Assembly: GCA_903830285.1 (NCBI GenBank)
Contig: CAIKTE010000035.1
Coordinates: 1-44,815, forward strand
From: an uncultured Chitinophagaceae bacterium
GTDB taxonomy: Bacteria; Bacteroidota; Bacteroidia; Chitinophagales; Chitinophagaceae
Direction of reading: 5' to 3'
Length of the DNA: 44,815 nucleotides
Positions 4,920-30,300 of the stretch are shown here, one piece after another (within the stretch, counting starts at the first letter, position 1; each line of letters begins with the position of its first letter). The notes beneath the pieces were generated by a model, which ran no database searches, was not told the DNA's origin, and saw nothing but the letters and a program-made list of their open reading frames with translations. Made by a program: the position numbers and the translations under genes.

Positions 4920-5927
4920 TCAATTGTTTGCTGATCGATAAATTTTTTGAATGATCTCTACTGTTTTCAATCCCTCAAAAGCATTAACGGTATTTATATT
5001 TCCGCTTTGAATTGTTTCAATAAGCTGCTGATATTCCTTATCATGATTGCTCATTGAACCAATATATGTTCCATAATCATTCGCAGCATTTCCTTCAGGC
5101 ATTGCATCGAAACTGAAATTTTCGATACAATGATATTCCAATTCATTCAAGTATTGTCCGCCGATCTTTACAGTTCCCTTCTCGCCAAAAATGGTCAACG
5201 ATCCTTCCATATTCTTTTGGAAACTATTTACAGTAAAATGAATGGATCCGATGATTCCATTTACCAATTTAAATACGGCGGCACCTGTATCTTCGAACTC
5301 AATAATTTGTTGATGGGCATAGTTATCTGTTAAAGTATGAACAGTTGCAATATCTCCAAAGAACCAATAGACCAGATCTATGAAATGGCTGAATTGAGTA
5401 AACAAACTGCCCCCATCCAAATCTTTTGTGCCCCTCCATGTGTCCTGATAATAAGTGATCCCTCTATTCCAAAAACAATTGATCTGTACATTATAGATCT
5501 TTCCTAGGCTTCCATTATCTAGGGCTTTTTTTACTGCAATTACCGGTGGATTAAATCTGTTTTGTTTTACCACAAATAGATTTTTACCCGCTTTTCCAGC
5601 TGCTGTGATTATTGCCCTGCAATCATCCACATTCAATGCCATTGGCTTTTCAACCAACACATGAAATCCTGATTGCAGGCATTGAATACTTTGTGCAGCA
5701 TGTAATCCATTGGGACTGCAAATTGAGATTACGTCAATATTCTTCTGCTCGTTTAAAAGATCCTCCAATGTTTTATAAGCTTCGGCCTGGTATTTTTCTG
5801 CCAATGATATGGCTTTCCCAAATACGATATCACATACAGCAACCAACTCTCCATAAGCATGGATCTGTTGTGCATGACGTACCCCAATTCTTCCACATCC
5901 TATGATCGCAAATCTGATCTTCTGCAT
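4920..5927 (-). CDS. Gfo/Idh/MocA-family sugar oxidoreductase, WlbA/WbpB-like
   Basis: The 335-residue protein has an N-terminal Rossmann fold with GCGRIGVRH (residues 10-18), the family EKP motif at 93-95 and KQNRFNPP (121-128), followed by a catalytic-domain stretch with GGSLFTQFSHFIDLVYW near 172-188. WlbA/WbpB enzymes oxidise C3 of UDP-GlcNAc uronic acid using NAD(H). The resemblance is in the EKP and QNR stretches, and the adjacent WlbB-like acyltransferase supports the assignment. The stop codon lies within 5 bases of the next gene's start, so the pair is translationally coupled. A general Gfo/Idh enzyme of another sugar pathway remains possible. Confidence 0.87.
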   Translation of the reverse strand: MQKIRFAIIGCGRIGVRHAQQIHAYGELVAVCDIVFGKAISLAEKYQAEAYKTLEDLLNEQKNIDVISICSPNGLHAAQSIQCLQSGFHVLVEKPMALNVDDCRAIITAAGKAGKNLFVVKQNRFNPPVIAVKKALDNGSLGKIYNVQINCFWNRGITYYQDTWRGTKDLDGGSLFTQFSHFIDLVYWFFGDIATVHTLTDNYAHQQIIEFEDTGAAVFKLVNGIIGSIHFTVNSFQKNMEGSLTIFGEKGTVKIGGQYLNELEYHCIENFSFDAMPEGNAANDYGTYIGSMSNHDKEYQQLIETIQSGNINTVNAFEGLKTVEIIQKIYRSANN

Positions 5928-5973
5928 TTGTATCGATATTATTTTAATTGCACTTTATTCGGATGCCTTTGCC

Positions 5974-7158
5974 TTATTGAGCAACACTAAAAAGACTGCG
6001 GTACTTTTTTTCGAAGGCCTTTGTTTGATCTTCTAGAACGAAACTGCTTTCAACTTTTTTCCTTGCTGCAATACCTATTTCATTTCGCAAATCAAAATTT
6101 TTCATTAATGGAGCCAGTTGTTCTGCAACGTTAGCAGGATCGTATAATTCAGCGATAAATCCATTGACAGCATGATCGATCACTTCTTCCACACCGCCGC
6201 AACGCGTAGAAACAGCAGGCAATTGCATAGACATGGCTTCCAATAATATATTCGGGATGCCTTCAAATACACTGGTCAATAAAAAGATATCCGATTCTTC
6301 CAATAAGGCTTTTATTTCGTCTTTATTCCTTTTATTGATAAAGCTCACATGGCCCTGCAATGAAAGATTAAAAGCATGAAATTGTAATTCTTCCAATTGA
6401 GAACCTTCGCCAACAATTTGCCAATGAAATTGAAACCCTTTGTCTGCTAATATTTTTAACGCTAAGAAACCTGTCAGATAATTTTTCTGATAACTTAAGG
6501 GTCCAACAGATATTATTTTAACAACCTTATTATTTGTTTTCGGTTTATTGCTATTGAAAAAACCAATATCGATGGCTGAGGTATTCACGAATATTTTTTC
6601 AGTATCCTTACAGAAAGGTGTGATAGACTTTTTCATGTCTTCAGAAACGCAATGTATCAGGTCTACCTTTCGAAATAAAATGCTCAATAATTCCTTCCGC
6701 TTATTATCGATCTGTAGTTTTACTTTTTCTGAAGTCCCTCTGCAACTCACTACTTTCTTACCTTTCAGGTCATCTATAATGGGCAAAAAGCTGATACCCA
6801 AACCCGAAAACTCAAAATGGATCACATCATATTTTATTTTTCCGAAGAAATGAATGTAATAGTTATGTATGAAGAGTTTGCGGAAGGTCTTTTTGTCAAA
6901 ACTCATTGACTGAAAAAATACAACAGGCGATTCAAAGAAACTACTCGCCACCGACCTTACAGTTTTTGAAAGTGACAATACATGCACTTTTATTTTGGAC
7001 GATTCAAGATCATATTTAGAAAAACTGTCTCTCCCGATATTTTTTTTATGACAAACAATATGCACCCGATGCCCCTTTAAAGCCAAAGAAACAGCTTTGT
7101 TATAAATATAAGTTTCATTAACACTGGGAAAATTATTTACAACAAGGCATATTCTCAC
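5974..7158 (-). CDS. glycosyltransferase family 4
   Basis: The 394-residue protein starts at a GTG (7158) and begins MRICLVVNNFPSVNETYI, typical of GT4 acceptor domains. The C-terminal donor domain carries SVGPLSYQKNYLTGFLAL (about 217-234) and the hallmark EGIPNILLEAMSMQLPAV followed by GGVEEVI (about 308-335), with the nucleotide-sugar-binding glutamates. It is cytoplasmic or peripheral to the inner membrane, and adds one sugar to a lipid-linked glycan in this operon. It lies 18 bases after the antiterminator gene. Confidence 0.93.
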   Translation of the reverse strand: MRICLVVNNFPSVNETYIYNKAVSLALKGHRVHIVCHKKNIGRDSFSKYDLESSKIKVHVLSLSKTVRSVASSFFESPVVFFQSMSFDKKTFRKLFIHNYYIHFFGKIKYDVIHFEFSGLGISFLPIIDDLKGKKVVSCRGTSEKVKLQIDNKRKELLSILFRKVDLIHCVSEDMKKSITPFCKDTEKIFVNTSAIDIGFFNSNKPKTNNKVVKIISVGPLSYQKNYLTGFLALKILADKGFQFHWQIVGEGSQLEELQFHAFNLSLQGHVSFINKRNKDEIKALLEESDIFLLTSVFEGIPNILLEAMSMQLPAVSTRCGGVEEVIDHAVNGFIAELYDPANVAEQLAPLMKNFDLRNEIGIAARKKVESSFVLEDQTKAFEKKYRSLFSVAQ

Positions 7159-20189: not shown

Positions 20190-21542
20190 TTATTTAAACA
20201 ATCTCAGGAAATCTAATCCCAATGCATAAGACATTAATCCAAGCAGCAAAATCATGCCAACCATTTGTGCATACTCCATAAACTTATCACTAGGCTTACG
20301 TCCACTAATCATTTCTACGATGGTAAACAATGCATGACCGCCATCTAAAGCAGGGATAGGTAAAATATTCATGAATGCCAATACTATGGAGAATATGGCA
20401 GTAAGCTGCCAGAATGCTTGCCAATCCCATACACCCGGAAATAAACCGCCGATACTGATCACGCTTCCTAAAGACTCACTTGCTTTTGCCTGTCCGGTAA
20501 ATAATTGCTTGATGCCTGTTAAATAATGTCCAAGGGTTGACCAGCACATTTTAAATCCGGCAGGTACCGCTTCAATGAAAGAATACTTTTTTGTTTCTAG
20601 AACGAATCCAAGTTTAGACAGATCAACTTCAGCGAATGCCCCTAGTTTTCCATCTTTATTTATCAATACCGGAACAGAAACAGTATCAGTGTTATTCCTG
20701 ATCAGTTTTACAGTCACTGTTTTATTCGCATCATTTTTTAAGGTGCTTCTTACTTCATTGTAATAAGGTGTAGAAACAGAATCAATCCCAATAATTCTGT
20801 CGCCTTTTTGCAATCCTGCTTTTTCAGCATTTCCTTCTTTACCAAAGCTATTTATTACAAAAGGAAATCTGATACCTACAAAATCCTCTCCTTTCGATTT
20901 GTTCAATTGTCTGATCAAACTATCCGGCAAGGCAATTTGCGATTCCTGACCATCTCTGCTGATGGTGATCGTTTTTGCTTCATTAACGATGATCTGCCCT
21001 GCTGTTTTAAATGCATTCCTCAATTCAACATCACCCACTTTTAAAATATAATCCCCATCCTTCAAGCCAATCTTTCTACCCAGACTATCAGCTACAATAC
21101 CATATTTCAAATTCTTTGCAGGTAAATATTCTTCGCCCCAAACCCACATGATACCAATGAATATTACGATCGCTAATATTACATTAACAACTACACCTCC
21201 GATCATAATGATCAATCGTTGCCATGCTTTCTTAGCTCTAAACTCATCCGGTTTTGGGGGCAATTTCAATTGATCCTTATCCATGCTTTCATCGATCATA
21301 CCGGCTATCTTCACATAACCGCCAAATGGTATCCAGCCAAGTCCATACTCGGTTTCACCTTTTGTTGTTTTCCATAAACTGAACCATGGGTTGAAAAACA
21401 AATAAAATTTTTCGACCCTGCATTTAAACCATCTCGCCGGAATAAAATGTCCTAATTCGTGCAATACCACCAATATCGAGAACGACATGATAAACTGCAA
21501 AGTCTTTATTCCTGCTACACTCCAATCAATTACTAATAACAT
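20190..21542 (-). CDS. rseP: site-2 protease RseP (M50 zinc metalloprotease)
   Basis: The 450-residue protein has the zinc motif HELGH (residues 28-32) in the first membrane segment, FGGYVKIAGM (about 73-82), two PDZ-like regions (about 120-290) and the third zinc-ligand segment NILPIPALDGGHALF (about 390-404). These are the hallmarks of RseP-type intramembrane proteases that cut anti-sigma factors and signal-peptide remnants. It follows dxr on the same strand, an order common in bacteria. Given the single-pass anti-sigma factor at 17696-18052, a functional link is possible but unproven. Confidence 0.95.
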   Translation of the reverse strand: MLLVIDWSVAGIKTLQFIMSFSILVVLHELGHFIPARWFKCRVEKFYLFFNPWFSLWKTTKGETEYGLGWIPFGGYVKIAGMIDESMDKDQLKLPPKPDEFRAKKAWQRLIIMIGGVVVNVILAIVIFIGIMWVWGEEYLPAKNLKYGIVADSLGRKIGLKDGDYILKVGDVELRNAFKTAGQIIVNEAKTITISRDGQESQIALPDSLIRQLNKSKGEDFVGIRFPFVINSFGKEGNAEKAGLQKGDRIIGIDSVSTPYYNEVRSTLKNDANKTVTVKLIRNNTDTVSVPVLINKDGKLGAFAEVDLSKLGFVLETKKYSFIEAVPAGFKMCWSTLGHYLTGIKQLFTGQAKASESLGSVISIGGLFPGVWDWQAFWQLTAIFSIVLAFMNILPIPALDGGHALFTIVEMISGRKPSDKFMEYAQMVGMILLLGLMSYALGLDFLRLFK

Positions 21543-21599
21543 TCAATTATATTTTTTTGTTAACTACTTTTTAAAAGTTGCAGATTTCTGGTTGCCAGT

Positions 21600-21652
21600 T
21601 TCAAGTGCTTCTCAACTTGTAACCTGTAACTTGAAACTTGTAACTTCTAACT
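21600..21652. repeat. 7-bp periodic repeat, site 4
   Basis: On the minus strand heptads run AAGTTAC, AAGTTTC, AAGTTAC, AGGTTAC, AAGTTG in the gap between dxr and rseP, with a partial inverted copy (CAGTTTCAAGT) at the left. It touches the end of dxr. Confidence 0.7.
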
Positions 21653-22812
21653 TACATTTCCACCAAAGAAGCTGCGAAATTACGTGCCTCGCCATCGCTT
21701 TCAAAATACTCTTCTAATGTTGGTTTTTCAATGAAAGAAATTTTTTGCAAGGTTTGTTCAACCATTTCGGTCATGTCTAAAAAGCCAATTCTGTTTTTAA
21801 GGAAAGCATATACAGCAATTTCATTTGCCGCATTTAAAATGCAAGGCATATTACCACCTTTATTCAAAGCATCCATTGCCAATGATAGATTTCTGAATGT
21901 TCTCAGATCAGGTTCTTCAAAACTAAGCGTACTTGGTTTCTTGAAATTGTACCTCGGAAAATCATTGACGATACGTTGCGGAAACGCCATTGCATATTGA
22001 ATAGGCAATTTCATATCAGGTAACCCCATCTGCGCTTTAATGCTGCCGTCTTCAAACTGGACCATGCTGTGAATAATACTTTGCGGATGTATGACCACCT
22101 GGATCTGATCGGGCCTTAAATTGAATAACCATTTGGCTTCGATCATTTCTAACCCTTTATTCATCAGAGTTGCAGAATCAATGCTCACTTTAGCTCCCAT
22201 TGTCCAGTTAGGATGCTGCAATGCATGATCACGTTTTACATTCACCAGGAAATTAGGTTTCTTTCCCAGAAAAGGGCCACCGCTTGCAGTAAGGATCACT
22301 TTTTCGATCTTATTCCTTCCTTCACCCACTAAACATTGAAAAATAGCTGAATGTTCACTATCAACAGGAATTACAGGAACTCTTTTTTCCAAAGCCTTTT
22401 GCATCACGATATCGCCTGCTACCACCAACGTTTCTTTATTGGCCAAAGCAATAGGCTTTCCATTTTCCAAAGCTCGCAGTGTTGGCTTTAAACCTGCATA
22501 GCCTACAATGGCTGCCAGCATCATATCATAACAATCCATAGCAGCCACTTCTTCCAATGACTGTTCTCCGGTGAAAACTTTTATATCTGTTTTTGATAAT
22601 GCGTCTTTAACGGTCTGATATTTTTTTTCGTCCCCTATCACTACACAATTCGGATTGAACAGCAAGGCCTGCTTGATCAATAAAACCTCATTAGTTTGGG
22701 CGGTAAGTACTTCTGCAGAGAATTTATCAGTATTGGCAGCAATCACTTCTAATGCCTGCGTACCGATAGAACCGGTAGATCCAAATATTGCAATGCGTTT
22801 AATAGTAGACAT
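21652..22812 (-). CDS. dxr: 1-deoxy-D-xylulose-5-phosphate reductoisomerase
   Basis: The 386-residue protein has the NADPH-binding GSTGSIGTQALEV (residues 11-23), ALANKETLVVAG (about 122-133), the metal and substrate region PVDSEHSAIFQCL (about 149-161) and ASGGPF, then HPNWTMGAKVSIDSATLMNK. DXR makes MEP from DXP in the non-mevalonate isoprenoid pathway, so this organism probably makes isoprenoids by that route. It is followed by rseP on the same strand. Confidence 0.98.
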   Translation of the reverse strand: MSTIKRIAIFGSTGSIGTQALEVIAANTDKFSAEVLTAQTNEVLLIKQALLFNPNCVVIGDEKKYQTVKDALSKTDIKVFTGEQSLEEVAAMDCYDMMLAAIVGYAGLKPTLRALENGKPIALANKETLVVAGDIVMQKALEKRVPVIPVDSEHSAIFQCLVGEGRNKIEKVILTASGGPFLGKKPNFLVNVKRDHALQHPNWTMGAKVSIDSATLMNKGLEMIEAKWLFNLRPDQIQVVIHPQSIIHSMVQFEDGSIKAQMGLPDMKLPIQYAMAFPQRIVNDFPRYNFKKPSTLSFEEPDLRTFRNLSLAMDALNKGGNMPCILNAANEIAVYAFLKNRIGFLDMTEMVEQTLQKISFIEKPTLEEYFESDGEARNFAASLVEM

Positions 22813-22903
22813 TAGTAATGAAACATTAAAATAAAGTAAACAAAGATGTACAAATTAAGGCAAACTATCGTGAAGATAAAAGCCAATTATTATTTTCATG
22901 TTC

Positions 22904-24397
22904 TTAGGATATGAAAGGCTGCAATTCCTCTGCGATTTTTCTGTCATTGCTCAAACGGGGTACTTTGTTTTGTCCGCCTAGTTTTCCTACGGATCTCATA
23001 TATTCAATAAACCCGTTTTTTCGTATTTGCCTGATCTGTAATTTTTCTAAGATATTGCCACGAATCAGATCATCATAATACACATTTTTCTCTCTCAAAT
23101 TATGATCAACTTTCTCAATAAAAACATTGATATCAGTGGGTTTATTTTCAAACTCAATAAACCATTCATGAAAACTTTTTCCTTCATTTTGAGAGATGTT
23201 TGGAGCAACGGTAAACTCAATGATCTTTATATTTTCTTCATTAGCGGCTTTCAATAAAGCATGTTCCACTTCTTCTCCGATCACGTGTTCTCCAAAAGCA
23301 GAAATGAAATGTTTGATCCTTCCGCTTACAATCACGCGATAGGGATCAATGCTGACAAATCTTACCGTATCACCGATATTATATCCCCACAAACCGGCAT
23401 TATTGCTGATGATCATGGCATAATTCTCTCCCAGTTTCACATCTTTCAAGTTCAACCTAGTTGGCTGCTCATTAAAAATTTCACTGGCCGGAACAAACTC
23501 AAAATAAATGCCACTGTTTGTATTTAATAATAATCCTTCTGCATCCTGAGAGTCCTGAAATGCAAAGAATCCTTCGCTGGCCGGGAACAATTCTATGCAG
23601 TCAATCTTCTTTCCAATACTTTCAAATAGTTTGGCTTTGTATGGTTCAAAGTTTACCCCCCCCTGTACCATGATAGAAAAGTTGGGAAATAAATCAGCTA
23701 TTTTTTTATCGCCTTTTTCAATCAAACGGTCAAAATACATTTGCATCCATGGGGGTATACCGCTGATGAGGGTCATATCCTGTTTCAAAGTTTCTTCTAC
23801 GATCTTATCCAATTTGGTTTCCCAATCTTCAATACAATTGGTTTCATATGAAGGCAGTTGATTGGTTCTCAGATATTTCGGGATATGATGATTGACGATA
23901 CCGCTTAAACGGCCAGTTGGTATATCTGCAATTCTTTCCAATTCGGGAGATCCGCTTAGAAAGATCATTTTACCCTTTGCAAAATCATAATTTCCCGATT
24001 CTGCCATATAACAGAGAAGGGCATTTCTTGCTGTATCTATATGATTACTGATCGAATCCTTGGTTATGGGTATATACTTTATACCAGAGGTAGTTCCACT
24101 GGTCTTTGCAAAATATATAGGTTTCCCTCGCCATAATATATTTTGCTTGCCCTCTTTTATCTTTTGGATGTATGGCTTGAATTGCTCATAATCCCTGATG
24201 GGTATTGCCGCTGCAAACTCAGCATGATCTGAAACTGCATCAAAGTGGTGTTCTTTCCCAAATTCAGTATCCTTACCATTTTTAATAAGAGACCTCAAAA
24301 TGGCTTCCTGATCTTCCAGAGCAGCATGTTTGCCCTTCTGGATCTTATTATATATGTAATTGGCAAAAGGACGTGCTAATAGTGATTTCAGGTTCAT
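22904..24397 (-). CDS. GH3-family (auxin-responsive-promoter-like) acyl-adenylate enzyme
   Basis: From the ATG at 24397 the protein has 497 residues. The frame extends to 24469, but that part runs towards the divergent rplU promoter. ATP/AMP motifs include YFAKTSGTTSGIKYIPI (about 94-110), LFPASEGFFAFQ (about 268-279) and GDTVRFVS (about 346-353). Plant GH3 enzymes join amino acids to acyl hormones via an adenylate; the role of bacterial homologues is largely unknown. The N-terminal SLLARPFANYIYNKIQKGK is typical of bacterial members. It is divergent from rplU and not obviously in an operon. Confidence 0.9.
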   Translation of the reverse strand: MNLKSLLARPFANYIYNKIQKGKHAALEDQEAILRSLIKNGKDTEFGKEHHFDAVSDHAEFAAAIPIRDYEQFKPYIQKIKEGKQNILWRGKPIYFAKTSGTTSGIKYIPITKDSISNHIDTARNALLCYMAESGNYDFAKGKMIFLSGSPELERIADIPTGRLSGIVNHHIPKYLRTNQLPSYETNCIEDWETKLDKIVEETLKQDMTLISGIPPWMQMYFDRLIEKGDKKIADLFPNFSIMVQGGVNFEPYKAKLFESIGKKIDCIELFPASEGFFAFQDSQDAEGLLLNTNSGIYFEFVPASEIFNEQPTRLNLKDVKLGENYAMIISNNAGLWGYNIGDTVRFVSIDPYRVIVSGRIKHFISAFGEHVIGEEVEHALLKAANEENIKIIEFTVAPNISQNEGKSFHEWFIEFENKPTDINVFIEKVDHNLREKNVYYDDLIRGNILEKLQIRQIRKNGFIEYMRSVGKLGGQNKVPRLSNDRKIAEELQPFIS

Positions 24398-24515
24398 AGA
24401 GAACTTATGAAGGGTTACAGAAGCGGCAAAAATAGGCTTGAGAGAGCAGTATTTAGCCTGTAGCAGCATTATTTTACAGAAAATTCGGTATTTGGGAACA
24501 ATTATTTGAGAATTG

Positions 24516-24548
24516 TTTGCAGATTTTCATTGCCAAACCTTACCTTTG
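24516..24548 (+). promoter_or_regulatory. promoter of rplU-rpmA
   Basis: TTTG (24516-24519) and TACCTTTG (24541-24548) separated by 21 bases, 21 bases before the rplU ATG. Confidence 0.65.
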
Positions 24549-24569
24549 CCGTCCTAATTTTGGATAGTT

Positions 24570-24875
24570 ATGTTAGCAGTAGTAAAAATCGCAGGTCAAC
24601 AATTTAAAGTACAAACAGGAGATAGTTTGTATGTACCTCACATAGAGGGAAATAACGGTGACAAAGTTGAATTCAACGAAGTGTTGCTTGTAGACAATGA
24701 CGGAAAAATTTCTATCGGCAGCGATATCAAAGCTATCGTTAAGGCAGAAATTGTATCCGCACTTGTACAAGGTGATAAAGTGATCGCTTTTAAAATGAAA
24801 AGAAGAAAAGGTTTCCGCAAGAAACATGGTCATAGAACTCACTATACCCGTATCAAAATTGAAAGCATCGCTTAA
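24570..24875 (+). CDS. rplU: 50S ribosomal protein L21
   Basis: The 101-residue protein begins MLAVVKIAGQQFKVQTGDSL and ends with the basic RRKGFRKKHGHRTHYTRIKI, both diagnostic for L21, which binds 23S rRNA. rpmA follows after 82 bases of A/T-rich sequence with a loose inverted repeat of the TAAAAACGAAA type. Standard length. Confidence 0.98.
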   Translation: MLAVVKIAGQQFKVQTGDSLYVPHIEGNNGDKVEFNEVLLVDNDGKISIGSDIKAIVKAEIVSALVQGDKVIAFKMKRRKGFRKKHGHRTHYTRIKIESIA

Positions 24876-24957
24876 TTAAAAACTGATGATTAAAAACGAA
24901 AGATTAAAGTGATGCTCATTTTAGTTTCTCGTTTTTAGTTTTTTAAAAAATAAAATC

Positions 24958-25224
24958 ATGGCACACAAAAAAGGTGAAGGCAGTGTAAAGAATGGTCGCG
25001 ATTCAAACAGCAAACGTTTGGGCGTAAAAATTTTTGGTGGACAACCTGCAATATCAGGAAACATCATCGTTCGTCAACGCGGAACTGAATATCATCCCGG
25101 CAAAAATGTTGGTGTTGGAAAAGATTTTACTCTCTTCGCATTAACAGATGGAGTTGTTGAATTTAAAAAAGGAAGGAACGACAGATCAACTGTTTCTGTG
25201 TTACCTGTTGAGCAAGCATCTTAA
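24958..25224 (+). CDS. rpmA: 50S ribosomal protein L27
   Basis: The 88-residue protein begins [20 protein letters not shown] and contains [21 protein letters not shown], typical of L27, whose N-terminus reaches the peptidyl-transferase centre. There is no N-terminal extension of the Firmicutes kind that needs cleavage. It follows rplU in the conserved order. Confidence 0.98.
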
Positions 25225-25292
25225 AAAAAATTTTGTGGTTTAAAAAATGTTTATAATTTTATGGTATTAACTAACCATTAAATTTTAAAAAC

Positions 25293-25439
25293 ATGGCAAA
25301 AGCTGCAAAAAAAGCCGCTCCAAAAAAAGCTGCAAAGAAAGCTGCTCCTAAGAAAGCCGCTAAGAAAGCTGCTCCTAAAAAAGTTGCAAAGAAAGCTGCT
25401 CCTAAGAAAGCTGCTAAGAAAGCTGCTAAGAAGAAATAA
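25293..25439 (+). CDS. small Lys/Ala/Pro-rich histone-H1-like protein (48 residues)
   Basis: An ATG frame encodes 48 residues composed almost wholly of Ala, Lys and Pro, built from the repeated nine-residue phrase KKAAPKKAA with small variations. Such sequences resemble the C-terminal tail of histone H1 and bacterial Hc1-like proteins, which bind and compact DNA by charge. It is short enough to be missed by gene callers. It sits 68 bases after rpmA and has a strong terminator at 25462-25493. The DNA is repetitive too, so its length may vary between strains. Function is inferred from composition only. Confidence 0.85.
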   Translation: MAKAAKKAAPKKAAKKAAPKKAAKKAAPKKVAKKAAPKKAAKKAAKKK

Positions 25440-25461
25440 TCTTCGAAGTAAAATAGATCTT

Positions 25462-25493
25462 AAAGTCTCGGAAATTTCCGGGACTTTTTTTTT
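25462..25493 (+). terminator. intrinsic terminator after the histone-like gene
   Basis: AAAGTCTCGGAAA pairs with TTTCCGGGACTTT (12-13 bp, one G-T), followed by a run of T. Confidence 0.9.
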
Positions 25494-25526
25494 ACTTCAA
25501 TCCCAACAGATAATTACATTTGATTT

Positions 25527-27203
25527 ATGGACAACAATTCTATTGCCGATAATTTTTCTCTGCTCGCCAAACTGATGGACATTCATGGCGATAATAGCTT
25601 CAAATCGAAGTCATATTCGGTTGCTGCTTTTACGATCGAAAAGTTACCTACCGCTTTAACAGAATTACCCGCAGCCAAAATATTTTCCATCAAAGGGATT
25701 GGTGATGCCATTGGCAAAAAGATCATTGAACAAATTGAAACCGGACAACTTTCCGCACTAAATGAATACCTGCAAAAGACTCCTCCTGGGATCCTTGAAA
25801 TGCTTGCTATTAAAGGGATCGGGCCGAAAAAGATTGCAACCATCTGGAAGGAATTGGAGATAGAAACCTTAGGAGAACTTCTATATGCCTGTAATGAGAA
25901 CAGATTAACATTATACAAAGGCTTCGGTGAAAAAACACAACAGAACATTAAAGAGTCCATCGAATTTTATATGGGCAGCCTGGGTAGTTTTTTATACCAG
26001 CAAATAGAATCTTATGCAACAGTGATAGATGAAAAATTAAAAAAAGAATTTGCTCTTGATCAATTTATTTTAACGGGAGAATTAAGAAGACAATTAGCTG
26101 TCATTGAAAAAATTGAATGGGTCACTACAACATCACTCAGCAACTTAAAAACATTTTTTATTGCGAATGATTTTATAATAAAAGAAGAAGCAGATTCTTA
26201 CATTTCTTTCAAAGGAAAAGAGAATATTACAGTTGGTTTTTTTTGTTGTGATGCAGCAAATATTTTCAGCAAATTATTTACTTCAAGTTGCAGTGAAACG
26301 TTTTTGTCTGCATGGAAATCGGCAACAAATTGGGAGGCCGGTTTTTCTTACAAAACCGAAGAAGAAATATTTTTTGCCCAAAAAATTGACTTTATTCCGC
26401 CTTTTCGGAGAGAAACTGAAAAAAATATTATCCACGAAAAATCGGGTTTATTAACAATCCCGATTCAAACAAATGATATCAAATCTATCATTCATTCGCA
26501 TAGTAAATGGAGTGATGGAAATAATACAATCGAAGAAATGATTGTTGCTGCAATAAAAAAAGGTTTAGAATATTTAGTGATTAGTGATCATAGTAAATCT
26601 GCATTTTATGCAAATGGTTTAAGAGAAGATCGCATCATTGCACAACATCAGCAAATTGATGAACTCAATAAAAAATATTCTGGCTTCAGAATTTTTAAAA
26701 GTATAGAAAGCGATATTTTGAATGATGGTAACCTGGATTATGATGATGAAATTTTATCAAGCTTCGATCTCATTATTGCATCGATTCATTCCAATTTAAA
26801 GATGAATGAAGAAAAAGCGATGATGCGTTTAATGAATGCGATTGAGAATCCTTACACAACAATTCTGGGACATATGACGGGCCGTTTATTATTAAGCCGC
26901 AATGGTTATCCAGTTGATCATAAAAGGATCATTGAAGCCTGTGCCGCCAATGATGTGGTGATTGAATTAAACGCCCATCCTAGACGTTTGGATATTGACT
27001 GGCGATGGATCGATTATGCTCTCGAAAAGAATGTTTTGATCAGTATTGACCCTGATGCACACAGTATTGAAGGTTTCGACGATTGCCGTTACGGTGTTTT
27101 GGTAGCCCAAAAGACAGGATTGATCAAAGAAAAGAACCTTAGCAGCTTCTCTTTAAAAGAATTTGAATCTTTTTTAGTTCAACAGCACAGCAAAAGAAAT
27201 TGA
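25527..27203 (+). CDS. PolX-type protein: HhH, degenerate polymerase and PHP domains
   Basis: The 558-residue protein has the order of bacterial PolX. Helix-hairpin-helix motifs lie near residues 48-64 (FSIKGIGDAIGKKI) and 92-107 (MLAIKGIGPKKIATIW), with KGFGEKTQQNI near 131. A palm-like region spans about 180-300, and a PHP domain from about 320 has IHSHSKWSDG, ISDHSKS, ESDIL, IASIHSN, GHMTGR and DPDAHS. The PHP metal ligands look intact, as for a 3'-5' exonuclease or AP endonuclease. The palm is abnormal: the GSxRR block is GELRR, and the following DxD is replaced by KIE. A TACATTTG box lies only 4 bases before the ATG. Probably a repair nuclease. Confidence 0.9.
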   Translation: MDNNSIADNFSLLAKLMDIHGDNSFKSKSYSVAAFTIEKLPTALTELPAAKIFSIKGIGDAIGKKIIEQIETGQLSALNEYLQKTPPGILEMLAIKGIGPKKIATIWKELEIETLGELLYACNENRLTLYKGFGEKTQQNIKESIEFYMGSLGSFLYQQIESYATVIDEKLKKEFALDQFILTGELRRQLAVIEKIEWVTTTSLSNLKTFFIANDFIIKEEADSYISFKGKENITVGFFCCDAANIFSKLFTSSCSETFLSAWKSATNWEAGFSYKTEEEIFFAQKIDFIPPFRRETEKNIIHEKSGLLTIPIQTNDIKSIIHSHSKWSDGNNTIEEMIVAAIKKGLEYLVISDHSKSAFYANGLREDRIIAQHQQIDELNKKYSGFRIFKSIESDILNDGNLDYDDEILSSFDLIIASIHSNLKMNEEKAMMRLMNAIENPYTTILGHMTGRLLLSRNGYPVDHKRIIEACAANDVVIELNAHPRRLDIDWRWIDYALEKNVLISIDPDAHSIEGFDDCRYGVLVAQKTGLIKEKNLSSFSLKEFESFLVQQHSKRN

Positions 27204-27349
27204 TAAGCATCAAATCATGCTTTGTAGCAAGCAATGCTCTAAAATAATATTTACGCTTCGCCTCATTAAGTCATAGGGAACAAGTATATAAGCCGAATTT
27301 GTTGGGTCACAATATTCGATCATCTCAATTAGTCGGTGACAGAATAATG

Positions 27350-30300
27350 CTAGCTTAATGGTAATTCAACAAAGAAAGTGGTCCCTTTTCCTGCTTCAGT
27401 TTCAAACCAGATACTGCCATTTGCTTTTTCAACAATCCCTTTGCAAATAGCCAATCCTAAACCTGTTCCGGAAGATTTGGTGGTGAAGTTGGGTGTGAAT
27501 ATTTTTTGCTGCATGTTTGCAGCAATCCCATGGCCGTTATCTTTTATAGATATCCTCGCAAAACCATTTATCATCTCTTGCTTCACTTGTATGATTGCAT
27601 TTTCATTTTCTTCGGTTGCTTCAATTGCATTTTTAAGCAAATTGGTAAATAAACGATTGATCTGAATTTTATCAGCCATCAAATGATAGTTACCTTCTTG
27701 TTTTTCCAATTCTAGATGAAGATTACTGTTGGTGTGATATAAATTAAGTAAAGAGCTTAACATTTCACTGAGGTCAAATTCTTCCAAGCGCACATTGCTG
27801 ATATTAGCAAATTGAGAAAAATCGCCTGCGATCTTGGAAAGCTGATCAATCTGTTCCACTAATGTTTTAGCAACATTCTGTGATAACTCTTTCACATTAT
27901 CGGCACCTCCGTCAATGGCCCGTTGCAAATACTGAATACTCAATTTCATGGGCGTTAGCGGGTTCTTAATTTCATGTGCTACCTGTCTCGCCATTTCACG
28001 CCAGGCTCCTTCCCTTTCGCTCTGTGCCAATGCAATTGCGCTTTCCTCTAATTTCTTTACCATTTTATTATACTCATTTACCAGCACACTAATTTCATCG
28101 TTTCCTTTCCAGTCGATCACTTCATTCACTTTTCCGAAACTGATCTGTTTCATTTTATCTCCGATCAAACTAAAGGTCGAGGTAATTCTATTCGTCACTA
28201 AAAATGCAAATGCGCCTGCTATCAAAAAAGTAAAGGCATTCAGATTGATCAGTGCTGCCAGAAAACCTGATATTTCCTGATTCAACTCTGCTTCTGAATT
28301 TAAATAAGGTATATTCAAATAAGCATAAGTATTTCCATCTTCATCAGTTACCGGTGTATAAATACTCAGATAAGTCAATTTTCCGATCTTTTCCTGCTGG
28401 ACCAATCTTGTCATATTGTTTTTCGACAATTGCCAATAGGCAACAGGATCCATTTTATTACTTAGTAAATGTTTGTTGTAGATATAAGGTTGTGTAGAAA
28501 CTTTTAATGTTCCAGACAAATCGAAAAAGTTTACATCTACACTATGTACTTCTGAAATTTCGGAGATCGCCTTTTCAATATAATTATTCAGATCAGCATC
28601 ATTCACATTCATCACATTCTGATTAATATACTGAGAACGAAATCTGTTCTCCACTTCAGCTGTCATTACCTGCAAGGATTTCAATAATCTATCCTCATTG
28701 CTTTTATTGAAACGAATGATAAAAAATGCGATCGTGGCGACGCCGATGACCAGAAAAGAAAAAATGCTGATGAAAATAATGGTGGCATGTATCTGTGAGC
28801 GGATATTCAATTGCAGCAATTGCCTGATTGCAGGCCATTTGAATCTTGCCTGCAAGAAATAGTTGATCGCCCAGAATAAGAATATAACGACTAAGAGAAT
28901 ACTGAATAAATAAGCGAATAATGCTACAGATTCGAGAAACATATCATTCTTTTTTGCGATCAACACCTGTTTGCCATTAGTCGCATTATACCAAAGCTCA
29001 TCGTAGGTACCATTATTTCTGCGTTCAAATTCGGCATTGGAGAAATTCTTCTTATTGAACTGAATGGGAAAATTATAGTCATTGAATTTATTGACTATTT
29101 TACCGTTGCTGTATACGGCATACGTATAATCGGTATTCAGATCGACAGATATATCCTGTGTTTGCTTGAACAATTCGGGAAACAATGCTTCACTCACATA
29201 TTTTTTAGGCTTCACAACAACAAACAAATATCCATCAGAGTCAGCCTGTTTGATCTGTTTTTCATAAATATATCCGGATGACCCTCCTGCATTCTCATAA
29301 CTGTATAAACCGGGAATTGTTGTTATTTTTCCTTGCGTAAGGATCAGTGTTTTAATAGTGGAATACTTAGCAGAATCATCATTAAATAAAGGATGGAATA
29401 CACTATCGTAGGTATATATCCTTGTATCATATTTGTTGAGATAACCGGAAAAATTCTGGTCGGTCAGGCTGTCTTTAATAAATTTATTGCTGTACTCTGT
29501 TTTAAACCTATAAAAATTATCAGTTAAGAATTGATCACTAAAATTAGTAGCAGCTATATTCAATAGACTTTCTCCTGAAGGATCGGATTGCAATGCCAAT
29601 CTTTCAGCAATTCTTTTTCGTTGTTCTATTTCTACGGTCTTGTTTTCATAGATAACAACAGCCGTAATAGAAACAGCAAAGAACATCACCCAGAAGATAA
29701 AAAATCTGGATTGGAGTATTGAAACCCCGATATCATTTTTCCTTAAGTAAAGAATGCCAGTATACAAAAGCAGCCATATCAATACTATGATATTGGGTAT
29801 AGTGGAAGGTTTGCCGATATTGAAACTCAGAAAAACAAGGCCTGTTACAGCTACAGTCAGTAACTGTTGAAAAAGACTAATATTTGAATATATTACTGAT
29901 TTCAGCAGAATATGCGATAGATTATAAAATATCAACACCAATAAACCAAGAATGCCGAAACTGATGATACTATAAATATTGAGACTGAAAAAATCAGTTA
30001 CATCAAAAGATATTTTAGAATCGATCACCAAACTTCTTATCACTCCTACCATTACAAAACAAATAATAACAAGTACTGCAAGATTGATAAATGTAAATAT
30101 CCTTCCCTTTTTTGCAGTAGTCTCATTGCTGTTTGTATCCTGATGAGATTTATAAAAACTCACTAACCAGAATAAAATCAGTGAATTGATCAGAAGATCC
30201 CCTAATGACGGATGCAGAAAATTTGAGGCATATATCGCGGGGTCAAATAATGCAATCCTGCTGAAATCAAATGGAAAGGGAATGGAATAAGTTATCAATC

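Follow-up and report, generated by a model that had tools for sequence, protein, structure and literature searches.

The locus studied here raises the question of whether a PolX protein can have lost its polymerase while keeping its PHP nuclease, and what such a protein would then do. By the window we mean the whole stretch of DNA that was analysed, namely 44,815 nt of the forward strand of contig CAIKTE010000035.1, from an uncultured Chitinophagaceae bacterium (assembly GCA_903830285.1). An earlier note on this DNA had described an open reading frame for a PolX with an apparently dead polymerase and an intact nuclease. The frame lies exactly where that note had placed it, and all of the strings quoted from it are present in the translation; its features, together with those just upstream, are collected in Table 1. 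The published studies on which we draw (Prostova et al. 2022, PMC9226535; PMC12926913; PMC6616362) are cited from excerpts of each paper.

Table 1. Coordinates of polX, its domains and motifs, and two upstream features, in window positions
Feature	Position	Strand	Basis or remark
polX, noncanonical PolX-type protein, 558 aa	25527..27203 (stop codon included)	+	ATG start, no internal stop
8-kDa N-terminal domain (HHH_8), aa 1-75	25527..25751	+	Pfam PF14716, E 7.7e-17, 61.9 bits, above cut-off
Second helix-hairpin-helix (HHH_5), aa 90-145	25794..25961	+	Pfam PF14520, E 5.7e-10, 40 bits, above cut-off
Degenerate palm and fingers, aa 151-276	25977..26354	+	No Pfam palm or thumb match; low identity; short fingers
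GELRR, remnant of GSxRR, aa 184-188	26076..26090	+	Alignment with canonical PolX
K195-I196-E197, replacing Asp-x-Asp	26109..26117	+	Alignments
G237, replacing the third catalytic Asp	26235..26237	+	Alignments; column within a variable stretch
Remnant of the dNTP-binding loop, TSSCSETFL, aa 252-260	26280..26306	+	Alignments
PHP nuclease domain, aa 317-545, nine ligands HHHEHHEDH	26475..27161	+	Pfam PHP 31.7 bits, above cut-off; alignment; YcdX match
Short gene, 48-aa Lys/Ala/Pro-repeat protein, between rpmA and polX	25293..25439	+	Neighbour, not part of polX
Intrinsic-terminator-like hairpin (11 pairs) and T run, between the short gene and polX	25462..25493	+	

Polymerase and nuclease sites of the window protein

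Judged by the order of its domains, the window protein is a PolX. It scores 383.9 bits against the NCBIfam PolX model NF006375, which is below the cut-off of 426, and its nearest solved sequence is that of D. radiodurans PolX (2w9m; phmmer E 8e-78). The helix-hairpin-helix and all PHP motifs, which the earlier note had described as kept, are indeed so: HHH_8, HHH_5 and PHP each match above their Pfam cut-offs, and nine of the nine PHP ligands are present (H323, H325, H355, E394, H421, H449, E480, D510 and H512). The Pfam families for the Pol-beta palm and thumb give no match to the protein at E<=1 (HMMER filters drop most matches above 0.1); the same families do match a polymerase-competent PolX from the same taxonomic family as the window.

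An alignment with canonical PolX, which the earlier note had suggested as a check, was run with plasmid-borne canonical PolXs (L043, L044, L045 and L047) as references, and all three catalytic Asp are replaced in it. The polymerase triad of the window protein is K195/E197/G237, or KEG, in agreement with the reading of the Asp-x-Asp as KIE and of the third Asp as lost, and the same KEG triad is found in three congeners of the window genome, which speaks against chance. The nucleotide loop is degenerate, as had been proposed: the fingers loop FTGSKEHN aligns to SSCSETFL, residues 253-260, and a second alignment shifts this loop by two columns, with the dNTP-contacting residues lost in both. The fingers, measured over a TGS-to-EE segment that we define here and that differs from the domain boundary of PMC9226535, comprise 22 aa in the window protein versus 35-37 in seven DDD rows, which makes them about 13 residues shorter than those of canonical PolX. 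The palm, over a GSxRR-to-TGS segment likewise defined here, comprises 70 aa versus 72-75.

The palm and fingers region is present and folded in an AlphaFold model of the protein (mean pLDDT 93.6), in which K195 and E197 are placed on the strand 195-200 and G237 on the strand 235-240; in Pol-beta folds the catalytic Asp lie on adjacent strands (PMC9226535). The top structural match to this model is T. thermophilus PolX 3au6 (Z 42.8, rmsd 15.2, 538 aligned), and D. radiodurans PolX 2w9m also matches (Z 39.5, rmsd 9.9, 530 aligned), with high rmsd values that we take to reflect domain placement. The PHP domain matches YcdX, 1m65, with Z 28.3 and an rmsd of 2.0 over 222 aligned. That the polymerase has been lost and the PHP nuclease kept is well supported by the sequence, and the central claim of the earlier note stands, with the KEG triad and the lost dNTP loop in the window protein itself and the biochemistry known from two Deinococcus members of the class (PMC9226535).

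Conservation, selection and locus context

We compared 117 window-type proteins, which consist of the window protein, 37 loci from the genome search, and 79 of the best 80 loci from a scan of named genomes. Similarity to the window was the criterion of selection, and a species may be represented twice; the named members are Bacteroidota, the nearest of them mostly Chitinophagaceae. Nine rows of other origin or with a canonical triad are left out of this count, and duplicates from the window's own genome (L002, L003) and partial loci (L007, L078) were dropped before alignment. None of the 117 carries three acidic triad residues: one such residue is found in 76 proteins, two in 36, and none in five. 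The set holds 75 distinct triads, the kind of variety that a site released from constraint would be expected to show. The nine PHP ligands HHHEHHEDH are complete in 116 of the 117 proteins, and the remaining one is cut short.

These counts bear on the suggestion that some polymerase or nucleotidyl-transferase activity persists at an unusual metal site formed by E197 and its neighbours. The protein retains the RR of GxxRR and a palm-like fold, and triad position 2 is acidic in 95 of the 117 orthologues; position 1, however, is K and position 3 is G in the window protein, the triad differs from species to species as counted above, and two Deinococcus relatives are inactive (PMC9226535), so that we regard such activity as highly improbable. 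Within GxxRR, R188 is kept in 113 of the 117 orthologues and R187 in 96, and the retention of R188 hints at a structural or DNA-contact job for the dead palm.

Across the 117 proteins, PHP and HhH are the regions most similar to those of the window (mean identity.69 and.67), followed by the 8-kDa domain (.55); the linker (.31), the palm (.27) and the fingers (.24) lie much lower. Between the window and its three congeners, dN/dS is 0.17, 0.28 and 0.29 for palm plus fingers, 0.06-0.08 for PHP, and 0.08-0.12 for the whole gene; these values are rough, because most domain comparisons give a dS of 0.64-1.8 and two give a saturated one. Since dN/dS in the palm and fingers exceeds that in PHP and yet stays at or below 0.29, the dead half is, by this measure, under relaxed but still non-neutral selection. 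We can refute the view that the gene is decaying or that its sequence is in error, to which we give practically no chance: the open reading frame is intact, KEG recurs in the three congeners, whole-gene dN/dS is about 0.1, and a window-type match at E<=1e-100 occurs in 359 of 394 genomes of the window's family (typed in part).

Whether the loss is general in Bacteroidota, as the earlier note had asked, receives a divided answer. It extends to all 117 window-type orthologues, but other lineages of the phylum are canonical: all 29 loci typed from its genomes beyond the family, chosen by their score to a DDD query, have the triad DDD. The same 29 loci keep all nine PHP ligands (one of them, L133, read from behind an in-frame stop). 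In a quick tree without Deinococcus, 19 window-type rows fall on one side of a branch with an SH-aLRT of 99, and two noncanonical rows, from Bradyrhizobium (L046) and a viral contig (L128), lie outside that side on long branches. The viral row is a PolX with the altered triad RDC at 5297-6901 of a contig classed as viral (IMG/VR 3300005563_001228). The other is an altered-triad PolX located two genes upstream of an annotated ligD on the Bradyrhizobium japonicum plasmid pS11L-1, which is typed as conjugative.

In the window, polX follows the genes for L21 and L27 (20190-25224; named by plasmid matches). Its position is partly conserved, in that the genes just left of it recur in 15-22 of the 54 full-size orthologue loci compared. 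Of 76 loci, window included, 29 have a short ORF similar to the one in Table 1 at <=800 bp upstream of polX. The 48-aa repeat protein has no Pfam match, and we take its Lys/Ala/Pro repeats to resemble histone H1 tails. Terminator-like sites in 24400-27500 number 2, versus 2.0 expected in shuffles, so that the hairpin upstream of polX is weak by count. A plasmid origin of the locus found no support in plasmid searches. When 20190-27203 was compared with plasmids by blastn, 26 records were returned, with annotated matches to housekeeping genes (L21, L27, DXP reductoisomerase and RseP), and no record covered most of the query; tblastn with the window PolX returned 40 records, all below 60% identity.

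Noncanonical PolX and its probable role at DNA ends

Prostova et al. (2022; PMC9226535) define noncanonical PolX by an altered triad, a substituted dNTP loop, shortened fingers, and retention of the 8-kDa and PHP domains, deletions in palm and fingers being common but not universal. According to the same paper, most PolXs of Bacteroidetes are noncanonical and form one cluster with Deinococcus. The window protein is one more orthologue of this class, and the finding is known in kind. The solved member, D. radiodurans PolX 2w9m, likewise has an altered triad, a degenerate dNTP loop, shortened fingers, the 8-kDa domain, and HHHEHHEDH; the window protein differs from the class in its own KEG triad and in that no Ku was found in its genome, and from D. 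radiodurans PolX in having Leu rather than Phe at the position of B. subtilis F440. Canonical bacterial PolX, as in B. subtilis and T. thermophilus, has the same order (8 kDa - thumb - palm - fingers - PHP) and the same nuclease site, whereas the window protein is without the polymerase triad and the dNTP pocket. In PMC12926913, too, the PHP site is described as the better preserved of the two in PolX, and the PolX1 group of that paper holds canonical and altered PolXs alike. The Actinobacteria PolX-like proteins described there keep a PolX-type PHP without a working polymerase, as the window protein does, but they are without the polymerase region that the window protein retains and that is modelled as folded; PolX2 of the same paper is without the N-terminal 8-kDa and PHP domains, both of which the window protein has. 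Finally, YcdX (1m65) and the stand-alone PHP proteins have the PHP fold in common with the window protein but no HhH or palm part.

The activity of the class is known from two proteins. The PolXs of D. radiodurans (triad AEE) and D. gobiensis (ARE) give no polymerase product and are strong Mn-dependent 3'-5' exonucleases, and the exonuclease of the former is abolished by mutation of PHP and not by mutation of the palm; an earlier claim of polymerase activity for D. radiodurans PolX could not be repeated (PMC9226535). In our assessment the window protein is very probably a noncanonical PolX that combines a Pol-beta-like scaffold with 3'-end trimming by PHP. In this view the palm and fingers would have lost their hold on catalytic metal and dNTP and would remain as a folded scaffold, and DNA with nicks, gaps or breaks would be bound by the 8-kDa and HhH domains. 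Trimming of 3' ends would fall to the C-terminal PHP domain in the presence of Mn, acting as a 3'-5' exonuclease, possibly a 3'-phosphatase or phosphodiesterase, and other enzymes would then fill and seal the trimmed ends. Our own data provide the loss of the triad, the loop and part of the fingers, the PHP ligands, the patterns of conservation and selection, and the predicted fold; the literature provides the exonuclease reaction and the absence of synthesis, in the two Deinococcus proteins. The likely role is 3'-end trimming in repair. Two points we infer: that the scaffold contributes to DNA binding, and in which repair pathway the protein acts in the window organism.

The PHP residues along the DNA path, as named in PMC6616362 for B. 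subtilis PolX and mapped by a constant offset of 16, are kept almost throughout: R453, R458, N482 and R487 in 117 of 117 window-type orthologues, and K529 in 114. Beyond the nine ligands, six PHP residues are reported there as important in B. subtilis PolX, and the window protein has these five of them; the sixth, F440, is L424. In B. subtilis the F440 Ala mutant has all of its nuclease activities severely affected (PMC6616362), and the Leu at this position would count against the nuclease reading of 3'-end trimming.

The same residue is important in weighing the idea that the window PolX is mainly an AP endonuclease of base excision repair. In its favour, B. subtilis PolX cleaves AP sites by means of its PHP domain and this same metal site (PMC6616362), and the 8-kDa domain is kept in the window protein. 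However, F440 is the aromatic residue discussed for AP-site handling, and it is Leu in 116 of the 117 orthologues, window included, as opposed to Phe in four of six canonical rows, in the Bradyrhizobium noncanonical PolX and in D. radiodurans; furthermore, D. radiodurans PolX is reported not to act in base excision repair (PMC9226535). We find this idea rather unlikely: AP cleavage may occur, but perhaps weakly, because of the Leu. Of the two nuclease roles that the earlier note had offered, at 3' ends and at AP sites, the latter is for this reason the weaker.

PolX and NHEJ genes are found together (PMC9226535), a noncanonical PolX neighbours ligD on the Bradyrhizobium plasmid, and among 59 genomes, the window's own included, Ku occurs in 18 of 43 with PolX versus 2 of 16 without (Fisher p 0.06, with kinship ignored and with two genomes that have weak partial PolX matches counted among the 16). 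One might conclude that the window protein serves Ku/LigD end joining as the nuclease that prepares the ends. But Ku was not found in the window genome, which is 98.9% complete, nor in four congeners, and it is absent from 25 of the 43 PolX-bearing genomes; end joining therefore cannot be the only job of PolX. We reject a linkage to NHEJ in the window genome, where no Ku was found, and consider this role very unlikely for the window protein.

A second PolX in the family

The 394 genomes of the window's family were also searched with a second PolX, that of genome G010, at E<=1e-40. A second PolX is found in 38 of them, and 39 copies were typed from DNA, two ORF fragments in G686 being left out. 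In G686, ORFs of 138 and 229 aa (L228) represent a broken further PolX in the same 20-kb stretch as the intact second copy. All 39 copies carry the triad DDD and GSxRR, but they differ in the nuclease half. In 16 the PHP set is full, either HHHEHHEDH or QHHEHHEDH, the latter being the set of T. thermophilus (PMC9226535). Another 19, of 337-350 aa, end before PHP (L201-L219); three, from one genus, have a PHP region with lost ligands; and one of the two copies in G763 has the partly lost set QHCDVHAGR. The second PolX of G010 (L033:857-2578), with DDD, GSLRR and the PHP ligands RQRLNNECQ, is the inverse of the window protein. The other PHP-dead copies, of the same inverse type with DDD and GSLRR, are L220 (G728) and L221 (G752), the ligand sets RQRLNNECQ and RHQVNNECQ occurring among the three, and all three genomes also match window-type PolX. 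In the sole PHP-less copy scanned against Pfam, that of G489, the 8-kDa, HhH, palm and thumb families match.

The quick tree mentioned above covers the region common to every protein in it (80 rows, 334 columns), with SH-aLRT as its only measure of support. It groups the 39 second copies in a single clade (SH-aLRT 98), within which the three PHP-dead copies are also a clade. Three changes of the PHP-less label are needed on this tree, at least two of them forced by starred branches. When a polymerase-only query was used outside the family (E<=1e-30), each of the 86 matches fell in an open frame of >=529 aa, with triads typed for the 29-locus set only; since the 39 second copies form one clade, this comparison between families is not one of independent events. 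The recurring neighbours of the 19 PHP-less genes, with each gene cluster typed by one representative, are a universal stress protein (12), YdjM (12), baeRF family 3 (11) and a phospholipase-D-like protein (8). Ku is present in 10 of the 38 second-copy genomes, including 3 of the 3 PHP-dead ones and 2 of the 19 PHP-less ones (G544, G613); with Ku in so few of the latter, we reject a linkage of the PHP-less copies to NHEJ.

A split of activities over two proteins is plausible from these sequences. We would put forward only tentatively that PolX has divided into two half-enzymes in the window's family, one of which cleans the 3' end while the other, the second PolX, in which the nuclease is lost in 22 of the 39 copies, fills the gap. 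The window genome, where no second PolX was found at E<=1e-40, would under that reading have the nuclease half only. A window-type protein also matches at E<=1e-100 in 36 of the 38 second-copy genomes, which is no enrichment, given how common that protein is in the family. Strict pairing of half-enzymes is not supported as a rule: G598, with a PHP-less copy, and G527, with a PHP-intact one, have no window-type match at E<=1e-100, and the 16 second copies with a full PHP set also counter it.

In the excerpts searched we found no PolX that has an 8-kDa domain and is without PHP, although supplementary tables could hold one. The PHP-less PolX2 of PMC12926913 has no N-terminal domain, and in PMC9226535 the exonuclease domain is described as obligatory for the PolX of prokaryotes, although that paper lists 10 sequences of <400 aa. 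If the split is true, a polymerase-only PolX of Pol-beta-like layout would provide a test of whether a separate nuclease replaces the attached PHP. As for the window protein itself, the published class is confirmed and extended: these bacteria keep the nuclease half of PolX, and not the polymerase, even in genomes without Ku.
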